Shown: positions 1 to 6,572 of the stretch, one piece after another
Numbering within the stretch: position 1 is the stretch's first letter
Layout of the letters: the number at the start of each line of letters is the position of its first letter
DNA from: Solirubrobacterales bacterium
Lineage (GTDB): Bacteria; Actinomycetota; Thermoleophilia; Solirubrobacterales; Solirubrobacteraceae
Direction: 5' to 3'
Length of the DNA stretch: 6,572 nucleotides
Assembly (NCBI GenBank): GCA_003157595.1
Contig: PMKB01000310.1
Coordinates: forward strand, 1-6,572
Translations under genes and position numbers: made by a program
The notes under the pieces: generated by a model
The model's input: the letters and a program-made list of their open reading frames with translations, nothing else
Told to the model about the DNA's origin: nothing
Databases searched by the model: none

Positions 1-393
1 ACCACCCAGTACCTCGAGGAGGCCGATTTCCTCGCCGATCGCATCGCGGTCATCGACCGCGGTCGGACGATCGCCGTCGGCACGGCTGACGAGCTGAAGA
101 GCCAGGTCGGCGGCGAGCGCATCGAGCTGACGCTGGCACGCGGCTCGGACCTTGACGCCGCGTCCGCGGCACTTACGCCGCACGTCGACGGCCCGGTGCG
201 GATCGAGGCGGAGACCCGCCACATCTCGGCCGCCGCGGCCGACGGCGCGCGCCGCCTGGCCGACGTCGTGCGCGACTTCGACGCCGCCGGGATCTCGATC
301 GAGGACCTGGCGGTGCGCCGGCCCACGCTCGATGACGTCTTCCTCGCACTCACCGGCCACGGCGCCGAGGACGAGGAGGCGCAGGCGGCATGA
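1..393 (+). CDS. ABC exporter ATP-binding protein, C-terminal part (DrrA-type), 5' truncated by the window
   Basis: This is the tail of an ABC ATPase that would power the permease immediately downstream. The frame is open from base 1 to a TGA at 391-393 (130 residues visible). It begins just after the switch histidine, reading TTQYLEEADFLADRIAVIDRG, the usual post-H-loop segment of DrrA-type (drug/daunorubicin-resistance) exporters. The Walker A, signature and Walker B motifs lie upstream of the window. The C-terminal extension ends in RRPTLDDVFLALTGHGAED, a pattern typical of the DrrA subfamily, which carries an extra regulatory domain after the nucleotide-binding domain. The stop overlaps the permease start in an ATGA quartet, so the two are almost certainly translated together. 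The family assignment is from these motifs. The substrate (drug, glycolipid or other) cannot be read from the sequence. Confidence 0.9.
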   Translation, partial: TTQYLEEADFLADRIAVIDRGRTIAVGTADELKSQVGGERIELTLARGSDLDAASAALTPHVDGPVRIEAETRHISAAAADGARRLADVVRDFDAAGISIEDLAVRRPTLDDVFLALTGHGAEDEEAQAA

Positions 394-1187
394 ACGCCGA
401 CGCCCAGCGCCACGGCTGGCTCTACTGGCAGGTCTCCGACGCGATCGTGCTGACCGAACGCGCGCTTCGTCACATCCCGCGCAACCCGGAGCTGTTGATC
501 TTCTCGACGATCCAGCCGGTGATGTTCGTGCTGCTGTTCCGCTATGTGTTCGGCGGCGCGATCAAACTGCCGCCCGGGGTCTCCTACGTCAACTACCTGA
601 TGGCCGGCGTGTTCGTGCAGACCGTCGCGTTCGGCTCCTTCACAACCGGCGTCGGGATGGCCCAGGACCTGCAGACCGGCCTGATCGACCGCTTCCGCTC
701 GCTGCCGATGTCGCGTGCCGCCGTGCTGCTCGGCCGCACCCTCTCGGATCTCGTGCGCAACACCTTCACGGTCGGCGTGATGCTCGCCGTCGGCCTGCTC
801 GTCGGCTTCGACCCGCAGGGCAGCGGACTGGAAATCGCCGGCGCGATCGGCCTGCTGCTGTTGATGAGCTTCGCCTTCTCCTGGGTCGGCGCGACGGTCG
901 GGCTGGCGGTCCGCAACGTCGAGGCGGTGCAGTCCGCCGGCTTCATCTGGCTGTTCCCGTTGACCTTCGCCTCGAGCGCGTTCGTGCCGACCACCTCGAT
1001 GCCGGCCGGGCTGCGCGCGTTCGCGAACAACCAGCCGATCACCCACATCATCAACGCGGTCCGCGACTGGAGTCTCGGCGTGCCGGTGGGATCAAACGGC
1101 TGGCTGGCCGCGCTCTGGTGCGTCGGCATCGTCGCCGTCTTCGTGCCGCTGTCCGTTCGACTCTACCGCCACGCCGCCTCCACCTAG
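390..1187 (+). CDS. ABC-2 type exporter permease (DrrB-type)
   Basis: This 265-residue integral membrane subunit pairs with the preceding ATPase to form an export pump. It has the usual ABC-2 layout: a cytosolic N-terminus, then hydrophobic segments at about residues 37-55, 68-88, 122-140, 148-172, 181-200 and 238-257. The loop after the second segment contains GLIDRFRSLPMSRAAVLLGR (residues 97-116), the conserved coupling-loop signature of DrrB-like permeases. FANNQPITHIINAVR (residues 211-225) before the last segment is also typical of the family. The ATG at 390 overlaps the upstream stop by four bases, so the start is well supported and translation is coupled. Length is normal and there is no sign of damage. 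The transported substrate is unknown; antibiotic or lipid export is a family-level expectation only. Confidence 0.92.
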   Translation: MNADAQRHGWLYWQVSDAIVLTERALRHIPRNPELLIFSTIQPVMFVLLFRYVFGGAIKLPPGVSYVNYLMAGVFVQTVAFGSFTTGVGMAQDLQTGLIDRFRSLPMSRAAVLLGRTLSDLVRNTFTVGVMLAVGLLVGFDPQGSGLEIAGAIGLLLLMSFAFSWVGATVGLAVRNVEAVQSAGFIWLFPLTFASSAFVPTTSMPAGLRAFANNQPITHIINAVRDWSLGVPVGSNGWLAALWCVGIVAVFVPLSVRLYRHAAST

Positions 1188-1208
1188 CGCCCGCGCCGGC
1201 GCCCGAGC

Positions 1209-1331
1209 CTAAGTGTGGTGCCCGCCGGGGACCAGCAGCGCGAGCGCGATGCCGAGCGCGGCGGCCAGCACCATCAGCATCGCGACGCGGCGCAGGTAGG
1301 GGCGAAACTCGGGTGGCAGCCTGTTCAGCAC
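1209..1331 (-). CDS. possible 40-residue single-span membrane peptide
   Basis: A short minus-strand frame ends at a TAG (1209-1211) and, from a GTG at 1331, encodes 40 residues. It has a basic, proline-containing start (NRLPPEFRPYLRRV) followed by one clear hydrophobic helix at about residues 16-34 and a short tail, PGGHHT. Codon third positions are almost all G or C, as in neighbouring real genes. The basic-then-hydrophobic layout fits a small inner-membrane protein. Against it: I see no good ribosome binding site, the start could also be a GTG at 1397 (62 residues), and the frame stays open far upstream antisense to the importer, which is common by chance in GC-rich DNA. It would converge on the exporter permease and diverge from the importer. 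No function is proposed. Confidence 0.35.
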   Translation of the reverse strand: MLNRLPPEFRPYLRRVAMLMVLAAALGIALALLVPGGHHT

Positions 1332-1370
1332 GGGTCTGGCGGCGGTCGCTCGCGTGCTCCGCGCGCTTGC

Positions 1371-1381
1371 GGGATCATCCC
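1371..1381. promoter_or_regulatory. small palindrome just before the importer operon
   Basis: The sequence gggatcatccc is a 5+1+5 inverted repeat ending 10 bases before the ATG of the substrate-binding lipoprotein gene. It could be an operator half-pair or a weak hairpin near the ribosome binding site. An AGG at 1382-1384, seven bases before the ATG, is the only Shine-Dalgarno-like match. Short palindromes of this size are expected by chance, so this is a weak call. No TPP riboswitch core is visible in the 204-base gap before the operon. Confidence 0.2.
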
Positions 1382-1391
1382 AGGCTGCGCA

Positions 1392-2369
1392 ATGCACGCT
1401 CTCGCCATCCGCATTCTCGCCGCGGCGCTCGCGACGCTTGCGCTCGCCGGCTGCGGCGGTGCCGGCGCCGGCGGCCTCGCGCACGCCACGCTGGTGCTGG
1501 ACTTCGTGCCGAACGCCGTGCACGCCGGGATCTACCGCGCGCTCGCGGCCGGCTACTACCGCCAGGCCGGGATCGATCTGACCGTGATCCCGCCGGGGTC
1601 GACCTCGACGACGCTCGAGCTGGTCGACGCCGGTAAGGCCCAGTTCGGCCTCGCCGACGCGATCGACGTGGCGCAGCAGATCGCCGAGGGCCGCGACGCG
1701 AAGGCGATCATGGCGATCGTCCAGCGCCCGCTCGGCGCGCCGATCGCGCTGGCGAGCGAGCATCTGCGCTCGGCGGCGCAGCTGGTCGGCAAGACGGTCG
1801 GCACCACCGGTGTGCCGTCCGACCTCGCGGCGCTCGACACGGTCGTCGCGCACGCGGGCGGCAACCCGGCGAAGGTGCACGTCGTGACGATCGGATTCGA
1901 CGGCGTCGCCTACCTCGAGTCCGGCAAGATCGCCGCTTTCACCGGCTACTGGCCCGACGACGGCGTGACGCTCCAGGTCGGCGGCTACCCGATCACCGTC
2001 TTCAAGCTCGACCACAACGGCGGCCCGGCATATCCGGGGCTGGTCGCCTTCACCACGCGGTCGCTGATCAGCAAGGACCGCTCGCTGGTCCGCGGTTTCG
2101 TGCGCGCCACCGTGCACGGCTATGAGGACACGCTGCGCGACCCCCGGCGCAGCCTCGCCGATCTGCTCACCGCCAATCCCTCGCTCGAGCGCAAGCTCAC
2201 GCGCGCTTCGCTCGCGGCCTATTTGCCGATCTTCGACGCCGGCGGCGTTCCCGACGGCACGCTCGTCTCCGCGCGGATCGCGGCGCTGTCGAGCTGGCTG
2301 CTCCGCAACCACCTGATCGCGCGGCCCGTCAGCGCCGCGCTGTTCGGCACGAATGCGTTCCTGCCGTGA
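1392..2369 (+). CDS. substrate-binding lipoprotein of an ABC importer (NMT1/THI5-like, ThiY-like)
   Basis: This 325-residue protein would capture a small solute outside the membrane and deliver it to the ATPase/permease pair encoded next. The ATG at 1392 is chosen because it gives a clean lipoprotein signal peptide: a basic residue at R7, a hydrophobic core, then the lipobox LAGC with the lipidated cysteine at residue 21. The frame stays open upstream to 1215, but that extension has no signal-peptide character. Mature residues 34-48 read LVLDFVPNAVHAGIY, closely matching the start of NMT1/THI5-like proteins that bind thiamine pyrimidine precursors (ThiY), where the pattern is D-(W/F)-x-PN-x-x-H-x-G-(I/L)-Y. 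The central segment, with STSTTLELVDAGKAQFGLAD and later GKTVGTTG, follows the type II periplasmic-binding fold. Related families bind taurine, alkanesulfonates or nitrate, so the ligand remains an inference. The stop overlaps the next start (GTGA). Confidence 0.9.
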   Translation: MHALAIRILAAALATLALAGCGGAGAGGLAHATLVLDFVPNAVHAGIYRALAAGYYRQAGIDLTVIPPGSTSTTLELVDAGKAQFGLADAIDVAQQIAEGRDAKAIMAIVQRPLGAPIALASEHLRSAAQLVGKTVGTTGVPSDLAALDTVVAHAGGNPAKVHVVTIGFDGVAYLESGKIAAFTGYWPDDGVTLQVGGYPITVFKLDHNGGPAYPGLVAFTTRSLISKDRSLVRGFVRATVHGYEDTLRDPRRSLADLLTANPSLERKLTRASLAAYLPIFDAGGVPDGTLVSARIAALSSWLLRNHLIARPVSAALFGTNAFLP

Positions 2370-3154
2370 AGCTCGCGGCGGAAGGGCTCGCGAAGCGGTT
2401 CGCGGGCGGCGTCGAGGCGCTCGCCGACGTCTCGATCGAACTGGCGGCGGGCGAGTTCGTCTCGATCGTGGGTCCGAGCGGCTGCGGGAAGTCGACACTG
2501 CTGGCGATGCTCGCAGGGCTGCTCGAGCCGAGCGCGGGGCGGATCCTGCTCGACGGGGTGGCGGCGCGCGACGGGGTGGCGGCGCGCGACGGGCTGCTCG
2601 GGCGGATCGGCTACATGCCCCAGCGCGACCTGCTGATGGAGTGGCGCACCACGCTGCAGAACGCCACTCTGGGCCTCGAGCTGGCGGGCGTCGCACGCGC
2701 GGCGGCGCGCGAGCGGGCGCTCGCCGAGGTCGGGCGGTTCGGACTCGCCGGCTTCGAGGACCGCCGGCCCTCGGCGCTCTCCGGCGGGATGCGCCAGCGC
2801 GCCGCGCTGCTGCGAACGTTCCTCGCGGGCCGCGACATGATGGTGCTGGACGAGCCGTTCGGCGCGCTCGACGCGCTGACCCGCGAGGCAATGCGTGAAT
2901 GGCTGCTCGGCGTCTGGGAGTCCGATCGCAAGACGATCCTGCTCGTCACGCACGACGTCGAAGAGGCGGTGTTCCTCTCCGACCGCGTCTATGTGATGTC
3001 GGGGCGCCCGGGGCGCATCCGGACCGCGGTCGAGGTGTCGCTGCCGCGCCCGCGCACGCTCGAGCTGACGGCCACGCCGGCGTTCGCGGAGCTCAAGGCA
3101 CGCCTACTCGCGCCGCTACGCGAAGAGGCCCGCTCCGCGCTGGGGTCCGCATGA
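2366..3154 (+). CDS. importer ATP-binding protein (SsuB/TauB/ThiZ-type)
   Basis: This 262-residue ATPase energises the importer. All nucleotide-binding motifs are present in order: Walker A GPSGCGKST (residues 36-44), Q-loop MPQ (Q86), signature LSGGMRQR (138-145), Walker B MMVLDEP with D162 and catalytic E163, D-loop GALD, and switch histidine H196 in LLVTHDVEEAVFLSDRV. The DVEEAVFLSDRV ending is characteristic of the nitrate/sulfonate/taurine and thiamine-precursor ATPase group. The GTG start at 2366 overlaps the stop of the binding-protein gene (GTGA), and the TGA overlaps the permease ATG, so all three genes are translationally coupled. One oddity is a perfect 18-base tandem duplication that adds six residues (DGVAAR twice, residues 63-74) between the Walker A region and the Q-loop. 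It keeps the frame and lies in a usually variable surface loop. Confidence 0.95.
   Translation: MKLAAEGLAKRFAGGVEALADVSIELAAGEFVSIVGPSGCGKSTLLAMLAGLLEPSAGRILLDGVAARDGVAARDGLLGRIGYMPQRDLLMEWRTTLQNATLGLELAGVARAAARERALAEVGRFGLAGFEDRRPSALSGGMRQRAALLRTFLAGRDMMVLDEPFGALDALTREAMREWLLGVWESDRKTILLVTHDVEEAVFLSDRVYVMSGRPGRIRTAVEVSLPRPRTLELTATPAFAELKARLLAPLREEARSALGSA
2552..2587 (+). repeat. perfect 18-bp tandem duplication inside the ATPase gene
   Basis: The unit gacggggtggcggcgcgc occurs twice back to back (2552-2569 and 2570-2587), followed by a partial third copy, gacggg. Each unit encodes DGVAAR. Because 18 is a multiple of three, the duplication is in frame. Perfect identity of both copies, including third positions, suggests a recent slippage event or an assembly artefact. 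The same peptide segment is normally present once in related ATPases. Confidence 0.95.
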
Positions 3155-3987
3155 GCACGACCGGGACGCGACTGGCGCTGGCGCTCGGCGGGCGACTCGA
3201 GCCGCGACCGCACGCCGCCCCCGGCCGTCGTCGCGGCGTCGTCGGGCGCGTGCTGGCGCCCATGGTCGTCGGCGTCCTGCTGCTCGCGCTCTGGCAGAGC
3301 TACGTGGCACTGTCCGGCGTGCGCGAGGGAACCTTCCCCTCGCCGCTCGAGGTGGCCGATGCGCTCGTGCGTGACCGCAGCCTGCTGTTGTCGAGCGCTT
3401 GGACGACGCTGTCGGAGATCCTGCTCGGCTACGGTGTCGCGATCGTCGTCGGCATCGCGCTCGCGACGGCCGTTTCGAGCTCGCGCCTGATCGAGCGCGC
3501 GATCTACCCGTGGCTCGTCGTCTCCCAGATGATCCCGATCCCGGCGATCGCCCCCGTCGTCGTGTTGTGGACCGGCTTCGACATCCGGCCCAAGCTGATC
3601 GTCATCGCGCTGGTCACCTTCTTCCCGATCGCCGTCAACACGATCGACGGCCTGCGCGCGACCGATTCCGAGCTGGTCGGCTTACTGCGGACACTCGGCG
3701 CCGGCCGCTTGGACGTCTTTCGCATCGCCCGCCTCCCCAACGCGCTGCCCTACGTCTTTTCGGGGCTGCGCGTGTCGGCCGCATTCGCCGTGATCGCGGC
3801 TGTGTTCGCCGAATGGGTCGGGTCGACGAGCGGCCTGGGCGTGCTGATCCTCGACTACGGCAACCAGGCGGCCACCGCAGACGTCTTCGCCACGGTCTTC
3901 GTGCTGGCGCTGATCGGCGTTGCGCTGTTCGCAGCCGTCGGGATCGTCGAGCGGCTGGCGGTCCCGTGGTGGCAGGTCGAGCAGTGA
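3151..3987 (+). CDS. importer permease (SsuC/TauC/ThiX-type, BPD transport inner-membrane domain)
   Basis: This 278-residue protein forms the membrane channel of the importer. The ATG at 3151 overlaps the ATPase stop (ATGA), which fixes the start. After a basic cytosolic N-terminus (residues 1-33) come hydrophobic spans at about 34-52, 86-108, 119-140, 147-166, 208-223 and 247-268. Residues 172-206 hold the EAA-type cytosolic loop that docks on the ATPase, with the conserved glycine (TLGAG, 181-185) and IARLPNALPYVFSGLR. EWVGSTSGLGVLI (221-233) is a hallmark of this subfamily. QMIPIPAIAPVVVLW (126-140) is also family-typical. It closes the operon: a GC hairpin lies just downstream, followed by the tRNA gene. 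Function as a solute permease is secure; the solute is not. Confidence 0.94.
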   Translation: MSTTGTRLALALGGRLEPRPHAAPGRRRGVVGRVLAPMVVGVLLLALWQSYVALSGVREGTFPSPLEVADALVRDRSLLLSSAWTTLSEILLGYGVAIVVGIALATAVSSSRLIERAIYPWLVVSQMIPIPAIAPVVVLWTGFDIRPKLIVIALVTFFPIAVNTIDGLRATDSELVGLLRTLGAGRLDVFRIARLPNALPYVFSGLRVSAAFAVIAAVFAEWVGSTSGLGVLILDYGNQAATADVFATVFVLALIGVALFAAVGIVERLAVPWWQVEQ

Positions 3988-3994
3988 CGGCGCA

Positions 3995-4037
3995 CGCGGC
4001 CCGCGCGCGGGAAGGCCCGCCCCGACCGCGGGCCGCG
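3995..4037 (+). terminator. GC-rich stem-loop after the importer operon
   Basis: An 11-base perfect inverted repeat, cgcggcccgcg (3995-4005) and cgcgggccgcg (4027-4037), flanks a 21-base loop, starting 8 bases after the permease stop. Its position between the operon end and the tRNA gene fits a terminator. There is no T-run after the stem, so it is not a classic intrinsic terminator, but T-poor hairpin terminators are common in high-GC actinobacteria. Confidence 0.5.
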
Positions 4038-4055
4038 ACAGCGACGAAGGCCCGA

Positions 4056-4061
4056 TACGAT
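4056..4061 (+). promoter_or_regulatory. candidate -10 element of the tRNA-Thr promoter
   Basis: TACGAT lies 14 bases before the tRNA and matches the TANNNT -10 pattern of housekeeping sigma factors. The best -35-like match, gcgaca at 4035-4040, has a short 15-base spacing and overlaps the preceding hairpin, so the promoter is tentative. Confidence 0.3.
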
Positions 4062-4074
4062 CAGCGACCGACTC

Positions 4075-4147
4075 GCCGACGTAGCTCAGCTGGTAGAGCA
4101 CTTCACTCGTAATGAAGGGGTCCCCGGTTCGAGTCCGGGCGTCGGCT
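4075..4147 (+). tRNA. tRNA-Thr (anticodon CGT)
   Basis: A complete cloverleaf folds by eye. The acceptor GCCGACG (4075-4081) pairs with CGTCGGC (4140-4146), followed by discriminator T (4147). The D-arm is GCTC...GAGC. The anticodon stem is CTTCA/TGAAG (4101-4105 and 4113-4117) around loop CTCGTAA, with anticodon CGT at 4108-4110, reading ACG codons (threonine). The T-arm is CCCGG-TTCGAGT-CCGGG. A T discriminator is usual for bacterial tRNA-Thr. CCA is not encoded. The 3' half, from the end of the 5' anticodon stem onward, is repeated at the window end. That fits an element that rebuilt this tRNA from its own att sequence on integration. Confidence 0.97.
4105..4128 (+). repeat. attL core of an integrated element, inside tRNA-Thr
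   Basis: These 24 bases are repeated exactly at 6549-6572. Identity starts at the last base of the 5' anticodon stem (4104 and 6548 differ), covers the anticodon loop and variable region, and enters the T-stem, where the window ends. Tyrosine integrases commonly cross over at the anticodon loop, so location and orientation fit an att core. The true core may extend to the tRNA 3' end (4147). Confidence 0.85.
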
Positions 4148-4457
4148 TGGAAAAGCCCAGGAAATCAGCGATTTCGGATTTCGGATTTCGGCTGATGGGC
4201 GCAGTGCGTAGACGAGTGCCCCGAGTTCCGCAGTTGGTAGTGACACGAATCGGCTGAGCGTGAGGAGGCGGAGCTTCTTAGCTCTCTTGCGGGGGCTGCT
4301 TCGGTCATTCTGGGCGATGCTCTGGCCCTACGGCTTGGCGCCGACGCATCGCGCGAGGCGCGACACGCTGGTCGGCGTTGGAGCCGCCATCGGGAGAAGG
4401 CGATCCGCCTTATTCGCTTAGCTCGCGCCGCTCCGGATGCCTTGTCCGGGAAGAGTC
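4148..4457. other. 310-base gap between the tRNA and the cargo gene; no convincing gene
   Basis: This left arm of the element has no gene I can support. It begins with a triple 7-base repeat (4170-4190). A tiny hairpin, aaggcg-atc-cgcctt (4397-4411), lies about 47 bases past the cargo stop and might help end the cargo transcript, though it is short and lacks a T-run. A plus-strand frame from 4244 to a TAG at 4520-4522 reads plausibly as protein (for example EEAELLSSLAGAAS, then HREKAIRLIRLARAA) with G-rich first codon positions. It has no ATG, GTG or TTG start and overlaps the cargo 3' end antisense, so it may be a decayed gene or chance. Confidence 0.5.
4170..4190 (+). repeat. three tandem copies of GATTTCG beside attL
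   Basis: Three perfect gatttcg units (4170-4176, 4177-4183, 4184-4190) lie 22 bases after the tRNA end. The ttcgg they contain is the reverse complement of the ccgaa in the hexamer array next to the right att site. The reverse complement of ggatttcgg also differs by one base from ccgaatcc at 6494-6501. Arm-type integrase binding sites are typical in this position, so that role is inferred. Confidence 0.85.
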
Positions 4458-5390
4458 CTAGCGAGGAGCGACGTTCGGCCCTTCCCTCAAGAACTCGTCC
4501 TGAAACCCTTTGCTCAGCATAGCTAAAGCCATCCGGTGGTCGCTCTGGCCCAGGTGATTCGGCGGACCGCTCGGCGTGTTGTTTACATCTAAGATGTAAA
4601 GAAGGCCATCTCCGGTATCGCGTACTATGTCGATTTCCCCATAATCGAGGCCCGACAAACGACTGAACGCCAGAATTTTGTCGCATTCCGACGGACTCAG
4701 CACATCCGCCGTATTGGCGATGTCAACTCGGGTGTTTGTGTTGCTGAACCGCGTGCTAACGGGTCGATATTTTAGATATATGAAGGGAACCGATGCTCCG
4801 ATAACGGGCACCCTGATGTCAAGCACGCCGTCTCCTACCACCTCATTATTGATCAGTCTCTGGTAAATGTAGCCCTTTTCGGCGCTCACGGGACACTGCA
4901 CGATGTTTCCATCGTGCTTGCCGTTGGCACTCGACTTCATTACACATGGCCCGCAAAACTTCTGTGGGTCAACGAAGGTACTACGGCCAAAGACATCGCT
5001 AAAAACGCTTTCGACGCGCTCTTTGCTTATGTCGTACGAGCCGCCGTTCACGACGGTGTAACGCCGGCCCAGCTGCACAAGTTCCTCACTCTCTACTCTC
5101 TTTGTGGTGTCTTGATAATGAATGACTAAGGTTGGGCTAGACCCGAGGCTCTGCGTAACCTTGCAGCCTAGAATATGCGCGATCTTATATAGGACGTGCG
5201 ATTGGTGTGGTACCTCTGGGTAAAACAGGATGGTTTTGCTACTCCCTGCCCGGATTACAGTCCAGACGTACAGACATTTGTATCGGAGGACAGACAGGCT
5301 ACCCCGCGGGCCTAGGTGATAGACCAGGCTAGTAAACCGGTAGAGCGGGGTCCGCTTCAAGCGGGCCGGGAAAATAGCAGCGAGCCGCAC
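4458..5390 (-). CDS. ATP-grasp-fold protein of unknown substrate (element cargo)
   Basis: From a GTG at 5390 this gene encodes 310 residues. The C-terminal two thirds has the outline of an ATP-grasp ligase: a nucleotide-contacting lysine candidate in CVMKSS (K152), a hinge-like YIYQRLI (175-180), DIRVPVIG with D191 and R193, a basic strand YLKYRPVSTRFSNTNTR (205-221), and the metal-binding end GLDYGEIDIVRD...LYILDVNNTPSGPP, where E252, D268 and N270 are the likely Mg-ATP ligands. Residues 50-140 would be the pre-ATP-grasp domain (LVIHYQDTT near 88-96). Such enzymes join a carboxylate to an amine or similar through an acyl-phosphate; the substrate here is not recognisable. GC is about 47-48% in sampled stretches, against about 75% in the host operon, pointing to transfer. 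Start choice is uncertain: the frame stays open to a GTG at 5525, but that would overlap the integrase N-terminal coding region. No strong ribosome binding site is seen at either. Confidence 0.8.
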   Translation of the reverse strand: MRLAAIFPARLKRTPLYRFTSLVYHLGPRGSLSVLRYKCLYVWTVIRAGSSKTILFYPEVPHQSHVLYKIAHILGCKVTQSLGSSPTLVIHYQDTTKRVESEELVQLGRRYTVVNGGSYDISKERVESVFSDVFGRSTFVDPQKFCGPCVMKSSANGKHDGNIVQCPVSAEKGYIYQRLINNEVVGDGVLDIRVPVIGASVPFIYLKYRPVSTRFSNTNTRVDIANTADVLSPSECDKILAFSRLSGLDYGEIDIVRDTGDGLLYILDVNNTPSGPPNHLGQSDHRMALAMLSKGFQDEFLREGPNVAPR

Positions 5391-5502
5391 GGCGAGATTG
5401 TTGCACAGGCAGCGCGCGCGTCCACGGCAATACTCGTTCCGGCACAAGGGGCGGCAGCGGTCTCGCAGCTTCCGCACGCTCTCTGAAGCGGTCCGCTTCA
5501 AG
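5349..5502 (+). repeat. 13-base direct repeat spanning the cargo/integrase junction
   Basis: GGTCCGCTTCAAG occurs at 5349-5361 (inside the start of the cargo gene) and 5490-5502 (inside the integrase gene), 141 bases apart, with further similarity just after if a two-base gap is allowed. Read on the plus strand, both copies encode VRFK in the integrase frame. This might mark an old duplication or the joint where the cargo was added. A repeat of this length can also arise by chance in a GC-rich window. Confidence 0.4.
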
Positions 5503-6572
5503 GGCCAGGTGGTCGCGGGGGACACTCAGCCAACGTCCCGAGAGCCGTTCAGGCGCTATGGCGAGCGATGGATCGAGTCGGACTCCGGCCGCACGTCGGG
5601 CGGCGTAGGGAGCGTCACGCGCGACAGCTATGCGGACGCGATCGCGCGCATCGCCATCCCGTACTTCGGGGCAACTCGCATGGACGAGATCGACGCCCCG
5701 ATGCTTCGCGACTTCATCGCGTCGCTTGCCGCCAAGCAGCTTGCGCCGTCCACGGTTCGCCGCTACTACGCGCCCGTCCGCGCGCTTCTCGCTACGGCCT
5801 ACGAGGATGACCTCATTCGCTCGAACCCGGCATCCAACGTGCGAGTGATCGTGTCGAGGACGACGGCGAGGAAGACGCGGTTGACCCCTGACCAGACTCG
5901 CGCGCTCCTTGCACAGATGCCTCCCGAGCACGCCGATCTCGCCTACGTCCTGGCCGCAACCGGACTGCGGATCGGCGAGGCGCTCGCGGCGAGGTGGACC
6001 GATCTCGGCCAGAGCGTCGATGGGCGGCCTGTGTTGACGGTGCCGAAGTCTAAGACCCCCTCTGGGCGGCGCGTGATTCCGCTGTCGCCAGAGACCGGCC
6101 ACCGCCTCCTCCGGCGCCGATCCGACGCGACATTCGCCGAAGACGCCGATCCGATGTTCCCCAACAGGTTCCGGGAGCCAATCGACGTCCACAACTATCG
6201 CCAGCGCATCTTCAACCCCGCTGCGAAGAAAGCTGGCGTCGCCTGGGCTACCCCGCACACCTTGCGGCACGGCCTCGCGAGCCTGATGGCGGATCATGGC
6301 CTCACTGCGTCGCAGATCGCGTCGCAACTGGGTCACGCGGATGGTGGCGTGCTCGCGCTCAGGACGTACATCCACGCCGAGCTGATCGACGCTCCGGACT
6401 TCATTGACGGTTCGCTCGCTGCGATTCGCGAGGGTCAACGCTGGGGTCAACACCGCACCCGAACCTCCCCGAACGTCACGCGACCTAGAACGCCCGAATC
6501 CCAGGGCGTTCCGAACCCTTCCGAACGCCTCCGAACCCGCCGATCAGAACTCGTAATGAAGGGGTCCCCGGT
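5401..6572 (+). CDS. tyrosine recombinase / phage-type integrase, 3' end open at window edge
   Basis: This site-specific recombinase probably catalyses integration and excision at the flanking tRNA-Thr sites. Numbered from the TTG at 5401, an AP2-like arm-binding domain is visible at 8-36 (QYSFRHKGRQRSRSFRTLSEA), a SAM-like core-binding domain at about 48-145, and the catalytic domain from about 160. All six catalytic residues are present: R190 (TGLRIGE), K218, H286 and R289 (PHTLRHG), H312 (QLGHA) and nucleophile Y323 (RTYIHA). The frame is open from 5344 with no ATG before the arm domain; TTG at 5398 or 5401 is the best start, since the GTG at 5509 would delete that domain. There is no stop in the window: the frame continues about 48 residues past the usual end of the fold, through phased repeats and the att core. 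Sampled GC is about 67%, between host and cargo. No ORF finder requiring ATG would report it intact. Confidence 0.92.
   Translation, partial: MHRQRARPRQYSFRHKGRQRSRSFRTLSEAVRFKGQVVAGDTQPTSREPFRRYGERWIESDSGRTSGGVGSVTRDSYADAIARIAIPYFGATRMDEIDAPMLRDFIASLAAKQLAPSTVRRYYAPVRALLATAYEDDLIRSNPASNVRVIVSRTTARKTRLTPDQTRALLAQMPPEHADLAYVLAATGLRIGEALAARWTDLGQSVDGRPVLTVPKSKTPSGRRVIPLSPETGHRLLRRRSDATFAEDADPMFPNRFREPIDVHNYRQRIFNPAAKKAGVAWATPHTLRHGLASLMADHGLTASQIASQLGHADGGVLALRTYIHAELIDAPDFIDGSLAAIREGQRWGQHRTRTSPNVTRPRTPESQGVPNPSERLRTRRSELVMKGSP
6432..6451 (+). repeat. pair of GGGTCAAC direct repeats, 12 bases apart
   Basis: gggtcaac occurs at 6432-6439 and 6444-6451, just inside the right end of the element and before the CCGAAC array. 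Paired direct repeats in this position could be integrase arm sites. They also lie in the open integrase frame and encode GQ-R/H there. The spacing of 12 bases is a whole number of codons, so coding constraint cannot be excluded. Confidence 0.5.
6459..6536 (+). repeat. 10-bp-phased CCGAAC array beside the right att site
   Basis: CCGAAC occurs at 6459, 6469, 6511, 6521 and 6531, with a variant CCGAAT at 6494. Within each cluster the copies are exactly 10 bases apart, close to one helical turn. The last three form 10-base units: ttccgaaccc, ttccgaacgc, ctccgaaccc (6509-6538). A 10-base period is not a codon multiple, so it reflects DNA-level structure rather than protein repeats. Arrays like this next to att cores are known to bind excisionases or integrase arm domains; that role is inferred here. 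Confidence 0.8.
6488..6511. repeat. 8-bp inverted repeat inside the phased array
   Basis: gaacgccc (6488-6495) and gggcgttc (6504-6511) are perfect inverted repeats around an 8-base loop. It could be a protein-binding dyad or a weak hairpin terminator for the integrase, but no T-run follows and the integrase frame has no stop before it. Confidence 0.5.
6549..6572 (+). repeat. attR core: partial copy of tRNA-Thr, cut by the window end
   Basis: This is an exact 24-base copy of 4105-4128 in the same orientation, lacking the 5' half of the tRNA. Such a 3' tRNA fragment is the usual scar at the distal end of a tRNA-integrated element. The window stops inside it, so I cannot see whether identity runs on to the tRNA 3' end or what lies beyond. 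Confidence 0.85.

Follow-up and report, generated by a model that had tools for sequence, protein, structure and literature searches.

How little can an integrative element at a transfer RNA (tRNA) gene carry and still move by itself? The question is raised by a unit of about 2.44 kb at a tRNA-Thr(CGT) gene of a Solirubrobacterales bacterium (assembly GCA_003157595.1). The window studied here, the whole 6,572-nucleotide stretch of DNA that was analysed, comprises bases 1-6572 of the 7119-base contig PMKB01000310.1 in a draft genome of 358 contigs that is 73% complete and probably metagenome-assembled. A sequence-only reading of the window had proposed an autonomous element with an intact-looking tyrosine integrase and one ATP-grasp gene. 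The evidence below points instead to what deletion has left of a larger integrative element: a non-autonomous unit in which a low-GC gene for a predicted ATP-grasp-fold enzyme accompanies an integrase that lacks its first ~33 residues. We consider this origin probable.

A bounded unit at tRNA-Thr(CGT)

The unit lies between two copies of the 3' part of the tRNA gene. The tRNA-Thr(CGT) gene itself (4075..4147, plus strand), supported by upstream synteny with three congeneric genomes (G001-G003), is intact after insertion, and from position 4105 on its 3' part forms the attL core (4105..4150, plus strand). As the sequence-only reading had described, the first 24 bases of this core (4105-4128) are repeated perfectly at 6549-6572 (plus strand), where they open the attR core, at a spacing of 2444. 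With equal base use, about 8e-8 such repeat pairs are expected by chance.

Extending the contig past 6572, for 547 bases to position 7119, shows the repeat continuing to the tRNA 3' end, as that reading had anticipated. After an NN gap at contig positions 6573-6574, attR resumes as CGGCTTGG. The sequence beyond the gap, CGGCTTGGCACAAAG, is the tRNA 3' end plus TTGG, and about 14 repeat bases are therefore hidden by the gap. When up to 2 mismatches are allowed, GGTTCGAGTCCGGGCGTCGGC has a single occurrence in the source genome, as the gap predicts. The database protein P0121, which is 100% identical to the integrase of the element and ends in SELVMKGSPVRVRASAWHKALYSQEL, is the window's own protein, listed with no named source and with 4 members on 3 contigs, the longest of 39,099 bp. 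It crosses the gap site as ...VMKGSPVRVRASAWHKALYSQEL, so that the first repeat is translated unbroken and is followed by the right flank. Because the protein reads through the gap into the right flank, the repeat is taken to be ~46 bp long (4105-4150).

The right flank opens with an epoxide-hydrolase-like gene (PF06441). A larger island past 6572 is ruled out by the tRNA 3' end followed by this gene, and the sequence supports a bounded integrative unit of 2444 bp rather than the edge of such an island. Besides the integrase and the cargo gene, the unit contains 10 frames of at least 50 amino acids. None of these has a Pfam match at E <= 0.01, in agreement with the earlier statement that nothing else in the unit is recognizable, and no conjugation or mobilization families are found in the integrase, the cargo or the 10 further frames.

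An integrase without its start

The integrase frame (5398..6572, plus strand) continues beyond attR as far as contig position 6612, within the right flank. The longest frame starts with TTG at 5398 and 5401, and the catalytic domain matches PF00589 with 66.4 bits against a cut-off of 27.1. However, the gene is not intact. It has no counterpart of residues 1-33 of its relative P0123, which itself aligns to the source genome only from residue 34 (35 in a second comparison). An HPGI-F/Y-KKG segment is full in 31 of the 34 rows of the integrase alignment A2. The exceptions are the window and P0121, which represent one element, and P0149, whose start falls inside the segment.

The predicted fold of P0123 (mean pLDDT, the predicted local distance difference test, 79.4; blocks of ~79-88 over residues 11-60) places strands at 25-28, 31-38 and 41-47 before a helix at 50-62. 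Relative to this model, the missing part comprises the first of the three strands and part of the second. The N-terminal domain is incomplete relative to the integrase's own subfamily. Presumably, from the general plan of such integrases, the missing portion belongs to an arm-binding domain; a Pfam search of five full-length relatives yields no named domain of this kind. By sequence, the closest solved structures are 6en0, 6emy and 6emz, described as 'Int protein', which we take to be the Tn1549 Int.

A minimal autonomous element, in which a shortened integrase starting at TTG 5398 or 5401 still moves the two-gene unit, would account for the high-scoring catalytic domain, the conserved catalytic residues, a frame that stays open for 404 codons across the NN gap, and the retention of both arm clusters. 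Autonomy is nevertheless improbable, given that the start of the predicted N-terminal domain is missing and that no excisionase-like family is matched in the integrase, the cargo or the 10 further frames. The proposal of an autonomous two-gene element is also not borne out by the other short units at this tRNA gene, most of which have no integrase match (see below).

Close relatives of the integrase are scarce. The subfamily, at a threshold of E <= 1e-60, is found in one of 145 other genomes of the family and in 6 of 398 others of the class. A scan of genome contigs yields at least 80 integrase loci, one of them close among the matches listed (58%, Conexibacter arvalis), and viral contigs yield 14 integrase loci, one at 44%. 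Phage records with a match to P0123 number 1213, all of them below 60%, with the best among the matches listed at ~30-32%; no DNA similar to the element is found in the phage records.

Foreign cargo in place of the integrase start

The cargo gene (4458..5390, minus strand) spans 310 codons from a GTG at 5390, a start chosen by alignment to P0002, while the longest frame begins at 5525. Its GC content is 0.536, compared to 0.671 for the integrase and 0.716 upstream of the element. Because its GC content is well below that of the upstream DNA, the cargo appears to be foreign. The description of this gene as ATP-grasp holds for the predicted structure, which appears ATP-grasp-like (AlphaFold2 mean pLDDT 86.8), and finds no echo in sequence families, since no Pfam or NCBIfam model scores above cut-off. 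Foldseek rows include PsnB, LysX/ArgX, Ddl and ITPK1 (best E 2.9e-8, probability 1.00), with template modelling (TM) scores of only 0.30-0.55. That the enzyme ligates a peptide or an amino acid is a guess based on the closest of these folds.

Homologues of the cargo number 126 at E <= 1e-3, with Mycobacterium and Pontibacter proteins among the 120 listed, and at least 3 are fusions with glycosyltransferase domains. The gene is also found in 2 plasmid records at 34%, and a search with the cargo alignment finds 3 viral loci. Since none of 60 near relatives has it, and only 5 of a further 398 genomes from the class do (E <= 1e-10), the cargo is no usual companion of the integrase.

The two genes meet at a narrow joint (5431..5441). 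Similarity to the cargo relative P0001 stops at 5435, integrase similarity begins at 5431-5441, and cargo-side DNA stands in place of the missing integrase start. P0001, from a contig of 1366 bp, is 95% identical over 91% of the query; it matches the window from its own residue 20, at 5435, and differs before that residue. A misassembly would give the same picture if a complete integrase had been joined to cargo DNA at this point, and the true element would then be larger. The contig belongs to a draft with NN gaps at 6573 and 6922, and the short P0001 contig leaves its neighbours out of view. However, the joint itself has no gap. P0121, whose cluster comes from three contigs, also begins inside the integrase, at MVAGD; had the gene been intact, gene calling would probably have given a longer protein. 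The chance of such an assembly error seems slim.

Around the joint, GGTCCGCTTCAAG is present twice, once where the cargo starts (5349-5361) and once in the integrase (5490-5502), 141 bases apart. The pair is possibly a microhomology or a product of chance.

A deletion origin could have proceeded in two steps. An element with a full-length integrase would have recombined with the anticodon-loop/3' part of the tRNA gene and, on integrating, restored the gene with its own copy. A later rearrangement would then have fused foreign DNA carrying the ATP-grasp gene to a point within the 5' end of the integrase, with loss of everything else. The truncated integrase is predicted to bind its arm sites poorly or not at all.

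Other islands at the same tRNA gene

Short att-flanked islands with different cargo recur at tRNA-Thr(CGT), which bears out the suggestion of a cassette family. One island with a close integrase is L064 of Conexibacter arvalis, where a full-length integrase of 364 amino acids, 58% identical, has an HTH_17 gene directly upstream. When 13 integrase queries were used at E <= 1e-2, 8 of the 9 units below 2.5 kb other than the window matched none of them (L051, L055, L072 twice, L232, L233 twice and L235), and the ninth, the second unit of L064, contains a C-terminal integrase fragment. The 15.6-kb island L242 also has no match to these queries, which a very different integrase could escape. Pfam searches of 10 short-island frames give glyoxalase, APS kinase, helix-turn-helix (HTH), DUF6036, Fic and DUF4442 families, and no integrase.

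Two further loci bear on the attachment sites discussed below. L232 is a 1.6-kb Fic island without an integrase match whose host belongs to another family of the order. On the viral contig L171 (IMG/VR 3300050821_004187, 10900-11150), a 44%-identical integrase is followed directly by a tRNA-Thr(CGT) 3'-end core. No tRNA gene is found in this 21-kb locus, and we therefore read the core as a probable free attP with the same specificity.

Other arrangements are also seen at these loci. Two additional att copies lie in the L064 region 7900-10731, close to integrase fragments, and this region is probably a tandem of decayed units. L072 includes a 1.2-kb att-flanked unit (3125-4206) in which an HTH gene and a gene for a DUF6036 nucleotidyltransferase form a toxin-antitoxin-like layout; the unit has no integrase match. 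Integrases adjoin tRNA-Thr(CGT) in the opposite orientation in L074, L077 and L189, and the tRNA gene is therefore probably a target of several integrase types.

In relatives, a downstream 3' copy of the tRNA was sought with a 43-nucleotide test allowing up to 9 mismatches. It is present at 6 of 33 loci, several of which are cut by contig ends. One of the six, L083, also has a 5' copy and thus represents a tRNA duplicate. A looser 35-nucleotide test finds 3' halves at a slightly different six of the 33 loci and 5' halves only at L083. Across the order, a strict 3'-half pattern occurs in 133 of 232 genomes, where the paired copies are a lower bound and 11 paired regions were fetched.

Arm sequences link islands with and without integrases

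Repeat clusters had been noted at both ends of the unit, and a scan confirms them. The left cluster (4171..4191) is a tandem of three ATTTCGG repeats that are predicted arm-type sites of the integrase. The right, or P, arm (6429..6548, plus strand) contains GGGTCAAC repeats and six CCGAA, and resembles the arms of L064 and L232. The six CCGAA within 100 bp left of attR and the three TTCGG within 100 bp right of attL are each the maximum of all 100-bp windows scanned. Over the whole window CCGAA is in mild excess (26 versus 17.0 expected; 4 of 200 shuffles have as many).

When the window arm is compared to 23 pre-core segments, three (L064_9125, L064_10689 and L232) score above all 300 dinucleotide shuffles, and the remaining 20, L171 included, show no similarity above this level. 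An all-against-all comparison covered 23 arms; L083 was omitted, since the tRNA 5' half is part of its copy. A score of at least 30 is reached by 25 of the 253 pairs, each above 300 plain shuffles. These pairs form three groups, apart from one weak L060-L064 link. Group A unites the window with L064, which has an integrase match, and L232, which has none. Group B, with the motif GTGTCCCGAA..ATGTCCC..AACTC, likewise comprises islands at the same tRNA-Thr, three with an integrase match (L234, L236 and L237) and three without (L051, L055 and L235). Group C consists of L238, L240 and L241.

A model (R1) built from sequence only, from the four group-A arms and 14 core positions, finds the putative attP on L171 (28.9 bits, E 5.2e-7), which is not in the model. 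Strong matches across the order are limited to 3 of 232 genomes, and arm A is thus rare; all three are model sources, which leaves L171 as the sole independent support for arm A. Under stricter filters, another 18 genomes with weak hits (E 5e-4 to 0.01) are left out of the count; two of these hits, in G148 and G114, lie beside att cores, but their scores include the core. The arm data are in keeping with non-autonomous derivatives relying on a full-length integrase.

Movement by a helper or fixed debris

If the unit is such a derivative, its core and arms would let the integrase of a full-length relative excise and integrate it in trans. Alternatively, an incoming element could carry the unit in cis by accretion. 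The broader proposal is that one-gene att cassettes at tRNA-Thr(CGT) in Solirubrobacterales (0.85-2.4 kb; ATP-grasp, Fic, glyoxalase-like or DUF4442 cargo) keep the core and P arm of one integrase family, have no working integrase, and owe their movement to full-length islands that share these arms and act in trans. They would then resemble miniature inverted-repeat transposable elements (MITEs) or clusters of attC sites lacking integron-integrases (CALINs). We put this proposal forward tentatively and regard it as rather unlikely.

The unit might instead be a dead island piece, fixed at a hot tRNA gene and no longer able to move by any means, whether its cargo is maintained or drifting. This explanation shares the deletion origin and denies only the predicted movement in trans or in cis. 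Short islands without an integrase match are common at tRNA-Thr(CGT), no close helper is seen in the source genome among the matches listed, and arm A is strong in few genomes. Debris deserves serious consideration, at somewhat under even chances. Against it, the cargo frame is open, and the arm sequence is still alike in the window and in L232, from another family of the order.

Several findings weigh against a helper-dependent remnant. The integrase keeps R191, K219, H287, R290, H313 and Y324 (R-K-H-R-H-Y), which we take to be its catalytic residues, and its frame is otherwise open, so that it may still be active. Its departures from columns conserved at 90% or above number 9, of which 4 fall in the joint region, and because relatives show 0-16 there is no clear signal of decay. 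At the joint, the first 19 residues of P0001 might be an over-called start. The source genome has 6 other integrase matches; the 4 listed are 27-31% identical, and among those listed in this 73%-complete genome there is no close full-length integrase. The full-length integrase of L064 ends at 6276, and the arms of this island are found at 9004-9136 and 10571-10700, with fragments of integrase genes in the vicinity. Since the integrase lies away from the arms, its pairing with arm A is by island rather than by adjacency, which weakens the claim of a matched helper. L232 enters group A via the window alone, with no link to an L064 arm at a score of at least 30. In the pairwise test of the L171 arm, 94 of 300 shuffles score as high, and ~13 of the L171 positions matched by the model are core, although core alone gives at most ~11 bits elsewhere in the search. 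Finally, no exact empty site with the window's right flank was found among 41 genomes.

The arm groups matter because islands without an integrase are easily written off as dead. P-arm groups join such islands to integrase-bearing ones at the same tRNA gene, and they offer a way to test from sequence which cassette a given helper might move. The result is a compact system for testing trans-mobilization of tRNA islands. The truncated integrase also cautions that, in a small tRNA-flanked unit, an open integrase frame is not by itself reason to infer autonomy.

Upstream host genes and the search for an empty site

Directly upstream of the tRNA lie genes for an NMT1-like protein, an ATP-binding cassette (ABC) ATPase and a permease, named from their sequences and, for the ABC ATPase, also by Pfam. 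All three congeners have these genes beside the tRNA. In this host operon, the ABC ATPase gene contains an 18-nucleotide in-frame tandem duplication (window 2552-2587).

G001 and G002 have no 43-nucleotide 3' copy with up to 9 mismatches within 10.3 and 15.8 kb downstream, respectively, and G003 has an 851-bp island at the tRNA by the same test. The 35-nucleotide test adds one copy in G002 at 3.8 kb and a second copy in G003 at 8.7 kb. The exact site is not established, because the right flank is not common to the congeners. In the search for this flank, 14 of the 41 genomes match, including the source genome; the other 13 do so only by stretches shorter than 80 bases, none of which was accepted as the same flank.

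Comparison with known systems

The literature searched includes no paper that joins ATP-grasp, genomic island, integrase and tRNA-Thr, and no title or abstract opening on the window element. Several described systems nevertheless share some of its features. Six closely related integrases of the pSE211 type insert in a tRNA-Thr gene, as described for the actinomycete integrative and conjugative elements (AICEs) of actinobacteria (PMC3218068). The window unit has the same type of target, and the L060 island at this tRNA carries an FtsK/SpoIIIE-family gene. However, FtsK-like Tra and Rep genes are not among the families found in the frames of the window element. Mobile genomic islands, as described in PMC7563491, possess an integrase but lack signature genes of conjugation or of prophages. 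The window unit is similar in both respects, but its integrase is truncated and it measures 2444 bp, compared to 28-38 kb for the examples given there. The smallest phage-related sequence described in Sinorhizobium meliloti measures 3.24 kb (PMC11476347).

Integrase-less cargo islands beside related integrase-bearing ones are also described in Dehalococcoides, where ssrA islands lack the integration module and are suggested by the authors to be possible cis-mobilizable elements (CIMEs) (PMC3146451). These islands differ in using a serine recombinase and an ssrA target. CALINs and MITEs are described as moved in trans by the enzyme of a relative, with gene deletion as the current paradigm of their origin (PMC11389934). 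The likeness is that recognition sites are kept and the enzyme is lost. The window unit differs in its tyrosine-integrase arms and tRNA core, and its movement in trans is only predicted.

The nearest comparison is with CIMEs, described as decayed att-flanked units without transfer genes that, with cargo, span 1.2-13 kb in Streptococcus salivarius (PMC7563491, PMC5704250). Like them, the window unit appears to retain flanking att sites in its core repeats, and no conjugation or mobilization module is found among the frames searched. Unlike them, it still has a long integrase remnant and resides in a different host group. The 7.1-kb contig shows no tandem integrative and conjugative element (ICE) or integrative and mobilizable element (IME), and no direct ancestor is seen; L064, an island with a full-length integrase and HTH genes, lies at the same tRNA. 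By the definition in PMC7563491 the unit can be called CIME-like. It is not filed outright as a CIME because its integrase, truncated at the N terminus but with its catalytic residues kept, may still function.

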